Source of the DNA: Vibrio ruber DSM 16370
GTDB lineage: Bacteria > Pseudomonadota > Gammaproteobacteria > Enterobacterales > Vibrionaceae
Assembly: GCF_900163965.1 (NCBI RefSeq)
Contig: NZ_FULE01000009.1
Location: forward strand, 1-64,000
Direction of reading: 5' to 3'
DNA: 64,000 bases
Shown piece by piece: positions 6,672-26,738 of the stretch; within the stretch, counting starts at the first letter, position 1, and every line of letters begins with the position of its first letter. Under the pieces are notes generated by a model. The model was not told where the DNA came from and did not search any database. It saw only the letters and a list, made by a program, of their open reading frames with translations. The position numbers and the translations under genes are program-made.

Positions 6672-8979
6672 AATATTATTACTCATCGCACCTGTTATTT
6701 TAATGGGTGCTGCTGCATCGACTTACATTATTTATGTGATGCAAAAAGATGCACTCATTAAACGGACTGATAGTTACCTACAACTCAACATGGAAAAACT
6801 AGCAGGTTATTATCGTCAAACGAATACACTGGTTAGTAGTTATGCCTACACATTGGCTAAAAGCGATATTATTCGCCATTATATTCACCATGAACAGAAT
6901 CCGTTCCGAGAACTTGAGCTGGTTGATAACCTGAATGACACCATTTATGCACTTCAACCCAAGCAACAACAGTTTGTCGCGTTATCGATTCTGAATAGCC
7001 AACACAAGGTTCTTTACTATGCTGACAGAAGTCATGACCCATTTGCCCAGATAGATCCCAAAATTCTAAACTACACCGAGCAAGTATACCGACAAACCAA
7101 AAAACTAAAGTATGTTGGCTACACTGAAAATTCATCCGGAGAAGGTGTCTTAGTTCGTTATGATGTTTTAGATACGAAAACGCTGCAAACACCGCTGAGT
7201 TATAACCAGAATGAGATCTTTTTCGTTCTGGTTTATGCAACGCTTGATCGTTTCAATCATCTGAAAAAAAATCTGGAATACGATAACCAAACCACCATTT
7301 TTTTCACCGACCACTCTGCGAAGAATACAACCTCTGAAAAACAAGAACTTGTCCAAACAGTTGAACTTCAGCCCGGCTGGTTCGCAACACTGGATCCGGC
7401 ACCATTGATTCTGAATCAACAGCTCAATGCTATCCAGAAAGCGTTAATTTTAGCGTTTAATGTCTCAGCACTTTTTACAGTTATCCTGCTATTGCTCCTG
7501 CTATATCGACATGTGATTAATCCAATCACCCGACTGGATCATCAATTACAGGAAGTTGAAAACAATCAGCGTAAAAATATTGAAGTGCTGTCGAGCAATG
7601 ATGAGATCGGACGTTTATCATCAAGATTTTATGTCATGTATACCGAACTGGAGAAAACCTACCAGCAAACCAAGTTATTGGCCGAAAACGATCACCTCAC
7701 TAATCTGGCGAACCGTCACCAGTTTCAACGTCATGCCAAAGCGATTCTTTCTCAGGCACGAACAGATATCTGGGCTCTCTATATTGATTTAGATAACTTT
7801 AAATACGTCAATGATAAATATGGACATCAAATCGGGGACTCACTACTGATTAACTTTGCAAATCACATCGAAACATTATGCCAAGATTTTAATCAGACCT
7901 ATGACGTACAGTGTCTGGCCGCCCGGCTTTCCGGAGATGAATTTGCCATTCTGCTTCATTCATCCACTCAGCAACTTAAAGTCGCTGATGAATTTGCCCG
8001 GAAACTATTAGAACCAATACAAAATCGGGCACAGTCACCCATAGGGCACTTCCCGATTACAGCCAGTATCGGCATTGCGACCTTCCCGGAAGATGGTCAA
8101 CATATTGAGAAACTCCTCTCCAACGCTGATACCGCGATGTATCAGGCAAAAAATGCAGGCAAAAACCAGATAGCACATTACTCAAAAGCACTCGATAAAG
8201 TTGTCAGACGTCGGGTGAACATTGAGCGGGCACTCCGAAACGGTTCTTTCGATCATGAGTTTAGTTTGGTTTATCAACCCTATTTTACCGGCTCCGGAAC
8301 AACCATCATGGGATTTGAAGTGTTACTGCGCTGGGAATCCGTTAAGTTGGGCGAGATCTCTCCCGATGAGTTCATTCCAATAGCAGAGCAAACCGGATTA
8401 TTCGGTGATATCGATCGTTGGGTCATCCGCAAGGCCTTTGAAGAATTCGCAACACTACAAAACCTTCAGGATGAACCGAAAAAAATTGCAATCAACCTGT
8501 CATCCGCAGAACTGAACTCCTTAAAACTGGCAGAATATATTGAAGCACTTGCGACCACTTATCAGATCCCTGTTCATTTGGTAGAGTTTGAAATTACTGA
8601 AACATTTGCCGCCGAATCTCAGAGTTTTCCACTATTACACGAATTATCGAAGCTTGGATTTGGCCTGACGATTGATGACTTTGGTTCCGGATACACATCG
8701 CTTTCACAGTTAGTTCAATACCCAGTCCAAAAAATCAAATTAGATCGTCAGTTTCTTGATACCCTAATTGCCACGGAAAAACATCAGGTCGTGAAACCAT
8801 TGATTGACCTGTGCCATTCTCAGAATATGGCAGTCACGGCTGAAGGGATCGAAACGGAAAGCATGTATCAATGGCTGCAGGCATACCAATGTGATTATTT
8901 ACAGGGCTATTATTTCGGTAAACCACTGTCGATCACTGAACTGAAAACACTCGCAGAACAATCAAAAGGAACACAATGA
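6655..8979 (+). CDS. mbaA: Dual GGDEF-EAL cyclic-di-GMP enzyme MbaA
   Basis: A 774-residue inner-membrane protein with a TM helix at about 7-29, a periplasmic sensor domain, a second TM at about 259-284, HAMP (285-337), GGDEF (about 340-510) and EAL (about 525-770). The GGDEF signature is SGDEF (426-430), which can still be active, and I see no RxxD inhibitory site before it. EAL reads EVL (555-557), but the metal-site residues remain (INLSS, EITE, DDFGSGY, AEGIE). In V. cholerae, NspS-bound MbaA switches between c-di-GMP synthesis and breakdown according to polyamines, controlling biofilm. Starts inside nspS, so translation is probably coupled. Confidence 0.92.
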   Translation: MKLSHRILLLIAPVILMGAAASTYIIYVMQKDALIKRTDSYLQLNMEKLAGYYRQTNTLVSSYAYTLAKSDIIRHYIHHEQNPFRELELVDNLNDTIYALQPKQQQFVALSILNSQHKVLYYADRSHDPFAQIDPKILNYTEQVYRQTKKLKYVGYTENSSGEGVLVRYDVLDTKTLQTPLSYNQNEIFFVLVYATLDRFNHLKKNLEYDNQTTIFFTDHSAKNTTSEKQELVQTVELQPGWFATLDPAPLILNQQLNAIQKALILAFNVSALFTVILLLLLLYRHVINPITRLDHQLQEVENNQRKNIEVLSSNDEIGRLSSRFYVMYTELEKTYQQTKLLAENDHLTNLANRHQFQRHAKAILSQARTDIWALYIDLDNFKYVNDKYGHQIGDSLLINFANHIETLCQDFNQTYDVQCLAARLSGDEFAILLHSSTQQLKVADEFARKLLEPIQNRAQSPIGHFPITASIGIATFPEDGQHIEKLLSNADTAMYQAKNAGKNQIAHYSKALDKVVRRRVNIERALRNGSFDHEFSLVYQPYFTGSGTTIMGFEVLLRWESVKLGEISPDEFIPIAEQTGLFGDIDRWVIRKAFEEFATLQNLQDEPKKIAINLSSAELNSLKLAEYIEALATTYQIPVHLVEFEITETFAAESQSFPLLHELSKLGFGLTIDDFGSGYTSLSQLVQYPVQKIKLDRQFLDTLIATEKHQVVKPLIDLCHSQNMAVTAEGIETESMYQWLQAYQCDYLQGYYFGKPLSITELKTLAEQSKGTQ

Positions 8980-18759: not shown

Positions 18760-20430
18760 ATGGATGTGATTCTTTCCCTGCTGCAACAAATGTGCGTTTA
18801 TCTTGTGCTTGCTTATATGCTCAGTAAAACGCCCCTGTTTCTGCCACTCCTGAATATTTCTTCCCGCCTGGAACATAGGTTGTCCATTTATGTGCTTTTT
18901 TCGCTGTTTTGCATTCTGGGCACTTACTTTGGCTTACAAATCGATGATGCTATCGCCAATACCCGGGCTATCGGTGCAGTGATGGGCGGGTTATTCGGTG
19001 GGCCGGTCGTCGGTTTTGCGGTGGGCCTGACTGGTGGACTTCATCGTTACAGCTTGGGCGGCTTTACTGATTTAGCCTGTGCGATTTCAACCACAACTGA
19101 AGGTCTCATCGGCGGGTTACTGCATACCTACCTGATGAGAAGATACCAACGGGAACGTCTGTTTCAACCGGGAGTGGTGTTCGGGATCACGCTATTCGCG
19201 GAAGTGATTCAGATGTTGATTATCTTATCGGTTGCCAAACCATATGACCAAGCGTTTTCACTGGTCAGTACCATTGCAGCGCCAATGATTATCGCCAACT
19301 CTGTCGGCGCCGCGCTGTTTATGAGTATTCTCAAAGACAAAAAATCGATTTATGAAGAATACTCTGCAACCTTTTCCCGCAAGGCATTACGCATTGCTGA
19401 ACGTTCCGTCGGGCTGCTGTCCGATGAATTTACGGCTAAAACCGCCGGGCCGGTCGCCCGAATCGTCTATGAAGAAACCAATGTCGGCGCCGTATCCATT
19501 ACCGATCGAGAAAAAATTCTTGCGTTCATTGGCATCGGTGATGATCACCATCATCCCAACACTCCCATTTCATCGCCCAAAACACTGGAATCGATTGAGA
19601 AAAATGAAATTATCTATCTCGATGGATATGAGCGTCCTTATCAATGCTCACTGTCGCCGGACTGTAAATTAGGGTCTGCGCTGATCATTCCGTTACGCGT
19701 TGATGATCGCGTTATCGGCACGATCAAACTGTATGAACAGAAGCGTAAACTGTTTTCATCGATCAATATGTCAATGGCCGGAGGGATTGCACAGTTATTA
19801 TCGAGTCAGATCCTGCATGGTGAATATCAACAGAAGAAAACATTGTTGTCTCAGTCAGAGATCAAGCTCCTTCATGCGCAAGTGAATCCTCATTTTCTCT
19901 TTAATGCATTGAATACCATTAGTGCGATCATTCGCACCGACCCCCGGCAGGCTCGCGAACTGATTCAACATCTGGCTCATTTCTTTCGCAGTAACTTAAA
20001 ACAGAATATTGAAACCATCACCCTTGCAGAAGAGCTGGCGCACGTAAATGCCTATTTGAGGATTGAACAAGCCCGCTTTTGTGATCGCCTTGAAATTGAG
20101 ATTCAGATCGATCCGTCACTCATGGAGCGGCATCTACCCACCTTTACACTCCAGCCTTTAGTGGAAAATGCGATTAAACATGGCACCTCTAATTTACTCG
20201 GGCAAGGAAAAATACGTATTTATAACCAACCCACAGCACACGGACACCTGATTGTTGTTGAAGATAATGCCGGGCTCTACCGCGCTTCACCCCATCCGAT
20301 CCAGGGGCTTGGTATGCAAATCGTCGAAAAACGTCTGATCAATTACTTTGGTCATTCATCACAACTGCAAACTGACATCCAGCCGGATGTCTCGACAAAA
20401 ATGCAGTTTTTACTCCCAAACCTAACTTGA
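18760..20430 (+). CDS. btsS: Pyruvate-sensing histidine kinase BtsS (YehU/LytS family)
   Basis: A 556-residue LytS-family sensor. Six or so hydrophobic segments in residues 1-195 form the 5TMR-LYT sensor, followed by a GAF-like region (about 225-345), the His_kinase domain with the phospho-acceptor motif HAQVNPHFLFNALN, and an HATPase (LVENAIKHG, GLGMQIVEKRL). In E. coli, BtsS binds extracellular pyruvate with high affinity. It is followed 23 bases later by its regulator btsR. A CstA-family transporter, the usual target class, lies 4 kb downstream with BtsR-like boxes before it. SD is weak. Confidence 0.88.
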   Translation: MDVILSLLQQMCVYLVLAYMLSKTPLFLPLLNISSRLEHRLSIYVLFSLFCILGTYFGLQIDDAIANTRAIGAVMGGLFGGPVVGFAVGLTGGLHRYSLGGFTDLACAISTTTEGLIGGLLHTYLMRRYQRERLFQPGVVFGITLFAEVIQMLIILSVAKPYDQAFSLVSTIAAPMIIANSVGAALFMSILKDKKSIYEEYSATFSRKALRIAERSVGLLSDEFTAKTAGPVARIVYEETNVGAVSITDREKILAFIGIGDDHHHPNTPISSPKTLESIEKNEIIYLDGYERPYQCSLSPDCKLGSALIIPLRVDDRVIGTIKLYEQKRKLFSSINMSMAGGIAQLLSSQILHGEYQQKKTLLSQSEIKLLHAQVNPHFLFNALNTISAIIRTDPRQARELIQHLAHFFRSNLKQNIETITLAEELAHVNAYLRIEQARFCDRLEIEIQIDPSLMERHLPTFTLQPLVENAIKHGTSNLLGQGKIRIYNQPTAHGHLIVVEDNAGLYRASPHPIQGLGMQIVEKRLINYFGHSSQLQTDIQPDVSTKMQFLLPNLT

Positions 20431-20453
20431 AATATCTTTGAGAGACTATCTGA

Positions 20454-21164
20454 ATGCAAGTACTGATTATTGATGATGAAATACATGCCAGAGAAGAACT
20501 GATTCAACTGCTTGAAGAAGATGACACGTTGAAGATCATCGGTCAGGCCGGCAACGCCATTGACGGGCTGAAACAGATCAACCAGCTCAAACCGGACGTC
20601 GTTTTTCTTGATATCCAAATGCCGCAGATCACCGGTATCGACCTACTGGCGATGTTAGATCAAGAAACCATGCCGAGAATTGTTTTTGTCACAGCCTATG
20701 ATCAATATGCTGTCCAAGCCTTCGAAGATAACGCATTTGATTACCTGCTCAAACCCATTGATGAGCAGCGGTTACGCAAAACCCTGCAACGGTTAAAACG
20801 AGATATACAACGACAGGATATCTCTTCTATTATCCCGAAGTCACTGGAACAGATCCCGTGCACCGGACTCAACCGGATTGTGATTATCCCAATACAGGCC
20901 GTTGAGTTTGTCAGTAGTGATCTGGCTGGCGTGCATGTCCAAACCAGTGACAAAAAAGCCACCAGCCAGCTTACATTGAAACATCTGGAAGAAAAAACCC
21001 CGCTGCTGCGCTGCCACCGTCAGTATTTGATTCATCCGAAAAACATTCAGGAGATCAAGCTACTCGAGCATGGTCTGGCTGAGGTACTGACCATTTCGGG
21101 ATATACGGTGCCGGTTAGCAGGCGCTATCTGAAAAACTTAAAAGAAACGCTCGGAATCAGTTAG
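20454..21164 (+). CDS. btsR: LytTR response regulator BtsR (YehT)
   Basis: A 236-residue regulator with a receiver domain (acidic pocket IDDE, phospho-Asp in VVFLDIQMP, TAYDQYA, LLKPI) and a LytTR DNA-binding domain from about residue 135 (VEFVSSDLAGVHV, LLRCHRQYLIHP, GYTVPVSRRYLKNLK). LytTR proteins bind direct repeats about two helical turns apart. Three such repeats lie before cstA at 25120-25168. Convergent with nagZ, with only 13 bases between the stops. Confidence 0.88.
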   Translation: MQVLIIDDEIHAREELIQLLEEDDTLKIIGQAGNAIDGLKQINQLKPDVVFLDIQMPQITGIDLLAMLDQETMPRIVFVTAYDQYAVQAFEDNAFDYLLKPIDEQRLRKTLQRLKRDIQRQDISSIIPKSLEQIPCTGLNRIVIIPIQAVEFVSSDLAGVHVQTSDKKATSQLTLKHLEEKTPLLRCHRQYLIHPKNIQEIKLLEHGLAEVLTISGYTVPVSRRYLKNLKETLGIS

Positions 21165-24549: not shown

Positions 24550-24906
24550 TCAGTGACTGGTATATTGATCCCAACCACGTTGCCACTCCATGCGAAACCG
24601 GTTTCCTGCCGGAGTTCCGGCACAAACCCCATCATAATATTGACCGGATAACCCGATTTGATAGGCAAAATCTGGATTACAATACTGGGTAACCCCGTCA
24701 TCATATCCCTCATCATAATCGGCTAGTTGAACAGCCCCCAGCTTGTGAAGCGCTTGATAGGAACGCTGTTGATGTCCTGCAATCCCATCACGATAACCGA
24801 TTTGATACCAATCTCCTTGTGTGGCAAGTGATTGCTCCGACGCAGAACACCCTAACAACAGTAAAGAAATGGCCATGCCAGCGAGCCAATTAGGAAAATT
24901 TATCAC
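24550..24906 (-). CDS. DUF2799 lipoprotein
   Basis: A 118-residue predicted lipoprotein with lipobox LLLGC (Cys20) and Ser next to it, consistent with outer-membrane retention. The mature part repeats a W/Y-x-x-G-x-x-D-G pattern (WYQIGYRDG, YDEGYDDG, YQIGLSGQYYDG), which is the DUF2799 family. Function unknown. The frame opens at GTG 24906, with AAGG ten bases upstream; the SD is poor, so the exact start is uncertain. Convergent with murQ; its promoter lies in the cstA control region. Confidence 0.75.
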   Translation of the reverse strand: MINFPNWLAGMAISLLLLGCSASEQSLATQGDWYQIGYRDGIAGHQQRSYQALHKLGAVQLADYDEGYDDGVTQYCNPDFAYQIGLSGQYYDGVCAGTPAGNRFRMEWQRGWDQYTSH

Positions 24907-25119: not shown

Positions 25120-25168
25120 ACCACTTCTTGCGGACAGAAGACCACTTAATTCTCCATACAACCACTCA
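25120..25168 (+). promoter_or_regulatory. Three direct repeats resembling BtsR sites, upstream of cstA
   Basis: ACCACTTC (25120-25127), ACCACTTA (25141-25148) and ACCACTCA (25161-25168) are spaced 21 and 20 bases apart (start to start). From memory, the reported E. coli BtsR/YehT motif is ACC(G/A)CT(C/T)A repeated with 13 bases between copies; the gaps here are 13 and 12. The sites end about 80 bases before the cstA start, a suitable place for activation. The rest of 24907-25250 is non-coding, with a GGGGAT/ATCCCC stem at about 25079-25110. Confidence 0.7.
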
Positions 25169-25250
25169 GCTGACTTTAACATGCATTACAGTTCTGGTCA
25201 GACTAGTCTATTGATAGAACATCTCTGCCCGCAAACAGAAGGAAAATAAT

Positions 25251-26738
25251 ATGTTATGGTTCTTCGTCTCCCTGATCGCTTTAATCGGCGGCTACTTTAT
25301 TTACGGTACCATTGTCGAAAAAATATTTGGTATTAATGAGAAACGCCGAACCCCTGCCTACACTCAGCAGGACGGGGTAGATTATGTCCCGATATCAACG
25401 CCAAAGGTCTACCTTGTTCAGCTATTGAACATTGCCGGTGTCGGCCCTATATTCGGGCCAATTATGGGCGCGCTATATGGCCCGGCGGCATTATTATGGA
25501 TTGTGGTTGGCTGTATTTTTGCCGGTGCCGTACATGATTATTTCTCCGGGATGCTCTCCGTCAGAAATGGGGGAGCCTCAGTACCGAACATCAGCGGCAA
25601 ATACCTTGGTAACGGCGCGAAACATTTTATGAATGCCTTTGCGATTATTTTGTTACTGCTGGTTGGGGTTGTGTTTGTTTCTGCACCTGCCGGTATGATC
25701 ACCAACTTGGTGAATGAACAATTTTCACTACATGTCGGCACGGGTCTGATGGTCATCATCATTTTTGCTTACTACATTTTGGCCACGATCGTTCCCGTCG
25801 ATAAAATTATCGGACGTTTATATCCGTTATTCGGAGCGCTGCTCATTTTCATGTCTGTTGGGTTAATCACCGCAATTATGCTCTCTGACAAACATACCAT
25901 TATGGGTGGATTTGCTATCGAGGATCTGTTCAGTAACCTCAACCCACGCGATATGCCACTGTGGCCGGCACTCTTCATTACCATTGCTTGTGGTGCGATA
26001 TCCGGCTTTCATGCCACGCAGTCTCCTTTAATGGCACGCTGTATGGAAAATGAAAAAAATGGCCGTTTTGTCTTCTTCGGCGCCATGATTGGTGAAGGTG
26101 TGATTGCTTTAATCTGGTGTACGATTGCCTTGTCTTATTTCGGCTCACTGGACGGGCTTTCTGAAGCGATTAATCAAGGTGGACCGGGTAACGTGGTCTA
26201 CAGCTCTTCATTCGGATTACTAGGTGTATTCGGGGGGATTCTGGCGTTTCTTGGTGTGGTCATTCTCCCAATTACTTCCGGAGATACAGCTTTCCGTTCC
26301 AGTCGTCTGATCTTAGCGGAGTATTTTAATATTGAACAGAAAACCCTGCGTAGTCGCTTATTAATGGCGATGCCACTCTTTGTTGTCGGTGGTATTCTGA
26401 CTCAGGTTGATTTCGGGATTATCTGGCGTTACTTTGGTTTTGCCAACCAGACCACCGCAGTCGTCATGCTTTGGACTGCTTCCGCATACCTTCTGCGCCA
26501 CCAGAAATTCCACTGGATCACCACCGTTCCTGCACTGTTCATGACAACGGTTTGTGTCAGCTTTATTCTCAACAGCAGTACGCTTGGATTTGGACTACCG
26601 ATGCAAATATCAACTATTCTTGGTTTCTTGGCTGCGATTGCGATGCTTGCCTATGTGCTCAAAGTGACCAAAGGCCATGACAATGAGGCACTTTCCAAAG
26701 TGAACAAAGCATCGGACGAGCAGACTAAAACAGCTTAG
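25251..26738 (+). CDS. cstA: CstA-family carbon-starvation/pyruvate transporter
   Basis: A 495-residue polytopic membrane protein of the CstA family, with at least a dozen hydrophobic helices. The N-terminal CstA core is well conserved (NIAGVGPIFGPIMGALYGP, HDYFSG, GAISGFHATQSPL, ITSGDTAFRSSRL). E. coli CstA and BtsT are about 700 residues; this shorter form lacks the long C-terminal extension, and the lysine-rich tail after the last helix looks like a natural end. Relatives carry pyruvate. SD AAGGAAAATAAT. BtsS-BtsR encoded 4 kb away and BtsR-like repeats upstream make it the likely target of that system. Confidence 0.88.
   Translation: MLWFFVSLIALIGGYFIYGTIVEKIFGINEKRRTPAYTQQDGVDYVPISTPKVYLVQLLNIAGVGPIFGPIMGALYGPAALLWIVVGCIFAGAVHDYFSGMLSVRNGGASVPNISGKYLGNGAKHFMNAFAIILLLLVGVVFVSAPAGMITNLVNEQFSLHVGTGLMVIIIFAYYILATIVPVDKIIGRLYPLFGALLIFMSVGLITAIMLSDKHTIMGGFAIEDLFSNLNPRDMPLWPALFITIACGAISGFHATQSPLMARCMENEKNGRFVFFGAMIGEGVIALIWCTIALSYFGSLDGLSEAINQGGPGNVVYSSSFGLLGVFGGILAFLGVVILPITSGDTAFRSSRLILAEYFNIEQKTLRSRLLMAMPLFVVGGILTQVDFGIIWRYFGFANQTTAVVMLWTASAYLLRHQKFHWITTVPALFMTTVCVSFILNSSTLGFGLPMQISTILGFLAAIAMLAYVLKVTKGHDNEALSKVNKASDEQTKTA

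Follow-up and report, generated by a model that had tools for sequence, protein, structure and literature searches.

Which regulator acts at the CstA-family transporter gene of Vibrio ruber DSM 16370, and what do the three short repeats in front of it mean? The gene lies in a 64,000-nucleotide stretch of contig NZ_FULE01000009.1 (positions 1 to 64,000), referred to here as the window. The first-pass annotation had read ACCACT(T/C) three times upstream of this gene, linked the repeats to the pyruvate-responsive pair BtsS/BtsR, and singled out three copies rather than two as a possible source of graded or cooperative control. The repeats were confirmed as ACCACTT at 25120-25126, ACCACTT at 25141-25147 and ACCACTC at 25161-25167, all on the plus strand, with starts spaced 21 and 20 bp; the element ends at 25168 with the base A that follows. 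They occupy the 344-bp gap from a divergent DUF2799 gene to the CstA-family gene, 90 bp before the latter. From sequence comparisons, a probability of about 0.82 is given to the reading of the three repeats as an operator at which BtsR controls a btsU-like pyruvate transporter gene. The sites themselves, their phasing and conservation, their restriction to this one promoter within Vibrio and their co-occurrence with BtsR were all observed.

The repeats at the window promoter

Sites were located with a 15-base weight matrix having the core A/G-C-C-A/G-C-T-C/T-A, and were joined into chains at distances of 19-22 bp. In the window, the distal BtsR-type site 1, ACCACTTC (25120..25127, plus strand), scored 9.0, site 2, ACCACTTA (25141..25148, plus strand, 21 bp past site 1), scored 16.1, and the proximal site 3, ACCACTCA (25161..25168, plus strand, 20 bp past site 2), scored 17.2. 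Site 1 is the weakest of the three because its eighth base is C, not A; its ACCACTT is unchanged in five of five genomes of the window clade, where position eight holds either C or G. Across the 102 promoters described below, constraint is strongest at the proximal site. The window genome has a BtsR orthologue, and direct repeats of the form ACC(A/G)CT(C/T)A, site 1 without the final A, stand about 21 bp apart before a CstA-family gene.

The pattern ACCACTYN{12,16}ACCACTY gave two matches in the window, both at these repeats, and none in 100 dinucleotide-preserving shuffles of the window. A looser pair pattern run over the whole genome was unremarkable, with 8 matches (2 of them the window repeats) vs 11 for the reversed control. 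The six remaining genomic pairs, set aside as candidates for further BtsR targets, sit in open frames of at least 100 codons, counted from stop to stop, although the frame around one of them (L002) has just 109 codons and may be non-coding. When Markov shuffles of the upstream regions of related promoters (2,040 in all) were scored for their longest phased chain, 978 had no site, 1,053 had one and 9 had two, and none contained a three-site phased chain. Phased pairs are thus unremarkable genome-wide, and three sites in phase are remarkable.

Site number and spacing in the Vibrionaceae

The Vibrionaceae set combined 80 and 30 loci (110), which gave 102 distinct upstream regions. Two sites were present in 3 of these regions, three in 32, four in 19, five in 27, six in 7, seven in 6, eight in 5 and ten, the maximum, in 3; at least four sites at 20/21 bp were found in 67 of the 102. 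Two regions in which the chain lies at least 283 bp from the start codon (L118 and L121) were counted as found. Nearest neighbors matching RCCRCTY were separated by 20 bp in 175 cases, by 21 bp in 28, by 19 bp in one and by 22 bp in none, and the remaining neighbor distances were mostly near multiples of the 20/21-bp step.

The longest arrays, those of V. jasicida (L069), V. harveyi (L070) and V. owensii (L074), hold ten sites from -280 to -100 relative to the transporter start, and each of their steps is exactly 20 bp. Splendidus-type promoters have nine readable phased positions, one of them eroded, and the close relatives V. fortis (L048) and Vibrio sp. D404a (L049) carry 7 and 6 sites, respectively, at about -208 to -88. 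The window clade is at the short end of this range of Vibrio array lengths.

Three sites as the usual operator form

In a next-site test, each promoter was represented by whichever strong phased pair lay closest to the start codon, and the adjoining phased position upstream was scored. All promoters entered had a pair. The next in-phase upstream site was present in 100 of 102 Vibrionaceae promoters, 28 of 30 Enterobacteriaceae promoters and 17 of 28 other promoters from BtsR genomes. The next downstream position scored in only 3, 1 and 2 promoters of these groups, and out-of-phase offsets scored in 0/612, 1/180 and 1/168 cases, respectively. The first-pass suggestion that three copies instead of two set this promoter apart was therefore not upheld: three phased sites are the common operator state in the Vibrionaceae and the Enterobacteriaceae, E. 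coli included.

The Enterobacteriaceae set, comprising E. coli and 30 further genomes (31 promoters), was excluded from matrix training. One promoter had no pair (L223) and two had no third site (L221 and L228), and by the chain rule at least three sites were found in 27 of the 30 genomes besides E. coli. The E. coli operator was reportedly described as two repeats by Kraxenberger in 2012. Upstream of btsT in E. coli K-12, three sites were read, GCCGCTCA, ACCGCTTA and ACCACTCA, scoring 9.4, 11.9 and 15.6 and lying 20 and 21 bp apart; the distal GCCGCTCA (L009), at -184 from btsT, is weaker than the other two, upstream of which it lies in phase. All three are contained in the published surface plasmon resonance (SPR) probe for BtsR (YehT) (PMC4847170). 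The agreement of the window motif with that of E. coli BtsR, as earlier proposed, held for both the sites and their phase.

Association with BtsR and exclusivity to the transporter promoter

Co-occurrence was examined in 40 CstA-like loci, chosen for family spread across the order from 130 genomes with a match; a BtsR orthologue was called at a best E value below 1e-50. A phased pair preceded 28 of 30 homologues in genomes with BtsR vs 0 of 10 in genomes without it (Fisher, 7.8e-8, uncorrected for phylogeny). Outside this count stood 19 stretches before larger CstA/BtsT-type genes, several of which are paralogues of the likely target; three sites were found in two of them (L191 and L201) and none or one in the other seventeen.

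In 148 Vibrio genomes, strict triples occurred at 62 places in 54 genomes, and 62/62 lie 77-184 bp upstream of the transporter gene on the same strand. The strict pattern misses many arrays, that of the window included, and the result therefore shows exclusivity and not frequency. Among 369 gammaproteobacterial genomes, the strict triple, by a pattern that misses the window itself, was present in five (G396, G512, G263, G287 and G490), and among the matches listed 20 of 20 were 7-bp tandem repeats of the ACCGCTT or ACCACTC type that mimic triples.

Several observations weigh against assigning the repeats to BtsR as a three-site operator. The ten genomes without BtsR hold more distant homologues, and the absence of sites may reflect a different gene; the co-occurrence is therefore support, not proof. 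Two of the 30 promoters from BtsR genomes have not even a pair, and 11 of the 28 promoters from other families have no third site by the next-site measure. The reversed control of the strict triple matched 18 times, in 2 of the 148 Vibrio genomes, and site 1 of the window scores weakly. As these Vibrionaceae promoters also served to train the weight matrix, more reliance is placed on the other tests: the next-site test, the Enterobacteriaceae, the co-occurrence and the exclusivity.

Conservation and evolution of the arrays

Conservation in relatives, on which the first-pass annotation had made its proposal depend, was found: the sites recur across Vibrionaceae promoters, and the cores are conserved in the window clade. 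In this clade (the window genome and four others) identity was 0.967 in the cores vs 0.784 in the spacers, and 0.305, ungapped, in the flank just upstream. Five Harveyi-clade promoters showed 0.887 in core columns and 0.661 elsewhere. The Splendidus type showed a weaker contrast of core vs rest (0.880 vs 0.777), and among four closely related fortis-type promoters the contrast was slight (0.963 vs 0.908).

Within arrays, spacer identity was 0.312 for adjacent and 0.297 for non-adjacent spacers vs 0.322 for random ones. As spacers of one array are no more alike than random, the copies appear mostly old and retained singly, with whole units occasionally gained or lost. The sole near-identical adjoining spacer pair is in the V. 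fortis promoter, and the array of its relative D404a is one unit shorter, which suggests that a single 20-bp unit was gained or lost recently. On the transporter tree, in which many branches are weakly supported, the state of at least six sites changes at least nine times.

Among the 80 Vibrionaceae loci L043-L122, btsSR lies upstream and separate in 39, btsU-btsS-btsR are in a row in 37, and the order could not be assigned in 4. The mean number of sites was 4.3 in the 39 loci with btsSR upstream and 6.0 in the 37 loci with btsU-btsS-btsR; gene order and array length could be compared in just one independent pair on well-supported branches.

Promoter elements and other inputs

Downstream of the array, a putative weak -35 region, ATGCAT (25181..25186, plus strand), lies at +20 to +25 from the proximal site and 17 bp before a putative -10 element, TAGTCT (25204..25209, plus strand), at +43 to +48. 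With the 102 promoters aligned at their proximal sites, T43, A44 and T48 each occurred in 97% and G at +22 in 96%; a good -35 was not seen. LytTR repeats are described as lying preferably about 10 bp upstream of the -35 region (PMC6193735); with the site unit taken as ten bases, the gap here is about 10 bp, i.e., this preferred distance. A consensus promoter scan reported nothing at the window -35/-10 position, which fits, and does not show, dependence on an activator.

Co-control by CRP was considered for Vibrio and is not claimed for the window. Matches to the CRP consensus with at most two mismatches were found in 28 of 102 upstream regions vs 21 of 102 shuffled ones. A strict pattern detected a CRP-like site upstream of the array in 9 of 30 Enterobacteriaceae promoters (e.g., L202, L207, L210 and L211), mostly 44-45 bp before the distal BtsR-type site, whereas no CRP site was supported in Vibrio.

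Autoregulation was rejected: none of the 34 loci with btsSR upstream, and none of the 37 with btsU-btsS-btsR, had a phased pair before btsS. Transcription of a btsU-btsSR operon from the array was likewise dismissed; a terminator-like hairpin was visible by eye in the btsU-btsS gap in 3/3 loci read (L070, L044 and L083). A feedback loop is not claimed.

We take V. cholerae VC0687 to be the orthologue of the window transporter. A HapR chromatin immunoprecipitation sequencing (ChIP-seq) peak is given for VC0687-VC0688, without a motif in its row (PMC10328515), and a quorum-sensing input is possible there.

Proposed mechanism and alternatives

In E. coli and Salmonella, BtsS is described as sensing pyruvate and BtsR as activating btsT. 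By extension, extracellular pyruvate would activate BtsS and, through it, BtsR. BtsR molecules would then sit side by side in the same orientation on sites about two DNA turns apart, occupying them cooperatively by analogy with YpdB on its two sites, and bound BtsR would contact RNA polymerase and aid a promoter with a poor -35. BtsR binding, its cooperativity and activation at the window promoter are thus predicted. In several Vibrio clades the three-site operator would have been lengthened upstream in units of about 20 bp, up to ten sites.

In a toy nearest-neighbor binding model with cooperativity of 10 to 200, passing from two to three sites lowered the half-point 1.4- to 2.4-fold and raised the sharpness. 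Sharpness was maximal at four sites, barely above that at three, and from three to ten sites the half-point fell another 1.3- to 2.9-fold. In the model, sharpness near its maximum at three would fit three being common. With little sharpness to be gained past three or four sites, the long arrays would need an additional reason, for which additive activation, a longer chain, DNA shape and titration are candidates. Tentatively, BtsR might form a head-to-tail, phase-locked, filament-like chain of three to ten molecules, in which the number of units would be an evolvable dial of the pyruvate threshold, pulse or strength, with three as the ground state even in E. coli. No complex of this sort was found reported for a LytTR regulator in the literature searched.

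Of the alternatives, one holds that the upstream copies serve mainly as a sink that titrates BtsR and sets a threshold or pulse instead of activating in place. The small gain in sharpness past three or four sites in the model favors it, in that long arrays need some other benefit. A sink has no need of helical phase, yet 203 steps measured 20/21 bp, one measured 19 and none 22, and we regard this explanation as unlikely.

Somewhat more doubtful is the view that the two proximal sites alone work, as one BtsR dimer site, and that the upstream copies are relics of duplication. It would account for the lower average strength of upstream sites in the window and in E. coli, it agrees with LytTR operators described as two repeats (PMC4847170), and 12 of 30 promoters from BtsR genomes fall below three sites, 10 of them with exactly two or one visible site short. 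The third site is nevertheless in phase in 100/102 and 28/30 promoters, at each of the ten Harveyi-clade positions the cores resemble one another more closely than do most spacers there, and the copies, given that spacers within an array match each other no better than random ones, are for the most part old and have nonetheless been retained.

That a different regulator such as HapR or CRP binds the repeats is very improbable: the HapR peak at VC0687-VC0688 speaks for it, whereas its row carries no motif (PMC10328515), CRP-like matches are near the shuffled level, and the repeat motif matches the E. coli BtsR probe and tracks the presence of BtsR.

Genes of the locus

The transporter gene (25251..26738, plus strand) encodes 495 amino acids and belongs to the CstA family, as had been proposed, with 188.1 bits for Pfam CstA against a cut-off of 27. 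Identity with the E. coli type of CstA did not hold (96.3 bits for NCBIfam NF011590, cut-off 1188; 495 amino acids). The product is 81% identical to the V. harveyi protein, and the target is a shorter relative, probably BtsU. Matches to the transporter were found in 141 of 148 Vibrio genomes and were full-length in nearly all genomes searched; in three (G059, G015 and G117) the match is interrupted by a stop or fragmented, for which sequencing error and gene loss are candidate causes. The divergent DUF2799 neighbor lies at 24550-24906 on the minus strand.

The btsS-btsR pair was placed correctly at 4 kb from the repeats, upstream of them at 18760-21164. Three other genes (nagZ-, anmK- and murQ-like) separate it from the transporter gene. 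The btsS gene (18760..20430, plus strand) encodes a LytS-type sensor kinase with Pfam 5TMR_LYT and His_kinase domains, 57% identical to E. coli BtsS. Its residues R69, R96, C107 and S110 align with R72, R99, C110 and S113 of E. coli, which are given as the pyruvate-sensing residues (PMC10653868), and all four are conserved. The btsR gene (20454..21164, plus strand) encodes a LytTR response regulator scoring 362.7 bits for the NCBIfam BtsR equivalog (cut-off 246). BtsR is the genome's sole LytTR match, and no second LytTR protein is therefore present to use the sites. Its aspartate D53 is kept and is the counterpart of position 54 of the E. coli regulator, a position named in PMC3875573. A look-up of solved structures for BtsR returned receiver-domain matches only (36 sequences at an E value of 1e-8 or better).

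Relation to known systems

The E. coli BtsS/BtsR (YehU/YehT)-btsT (yjiY) system resembles that of the window in regulator family, ACC(A/G)CT(C/T)A sites, 20/21-bp phase, site number, CstA-family target and the retained pyruvate-sensor residues. It differs in the transporter, which has 716 amino acids vs 495 in the window. V. campbellii is described as having BtsS/BtsR and one pyruvate transporter, BtsU (PMC10653868), and its tags M892_07975 beside 07980-07985 (PMC5552118) fit the gene order of V. harveyi (L070). The window differs from V. campbellii in that btsSR precedes the transporter gene and three other genes intervene. A link between BtsSR and a transporter is on record in E. coli and also in V. 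campbellii, for the latter in PMC5552118 and PMC10653868.

YpdB/yhjX of E. coli and other LytTR operators have direct repeats about two turns apart, on which YpdB binds cooperatively (PMC4847170); these operators have two repeats, whereas BtsR arrays have three to ten. Direct repeats exceeding the two of a dimer are described for ArcA operators (PMC3798270), and head-to-tail oligomers on varying numbers of repeats for BldC (PMC5859096). Both differ from the BtsR arrays in having unrelated DNA-binding folds and many targets, in contrast to a LytTR protein with one promoter in Vibrio. In the literature searched, neither a BtsR array nor any promoter with over two LytTR sites was found described, which does not prove absence.

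Within the series of arrays the window locus is ordinary, and it is the series that is of interest. If the third E. coli site is functional, the current picture of the BtsR operator would be incomplete. The Vibrionaceae promoters, with 2 to 10 equally spaced sites before one gene, offer a natural copy-number series for dose-response effects, and the arrays suggest that assemblies of LytTR proteins on DNA can grow larger than a dimer.
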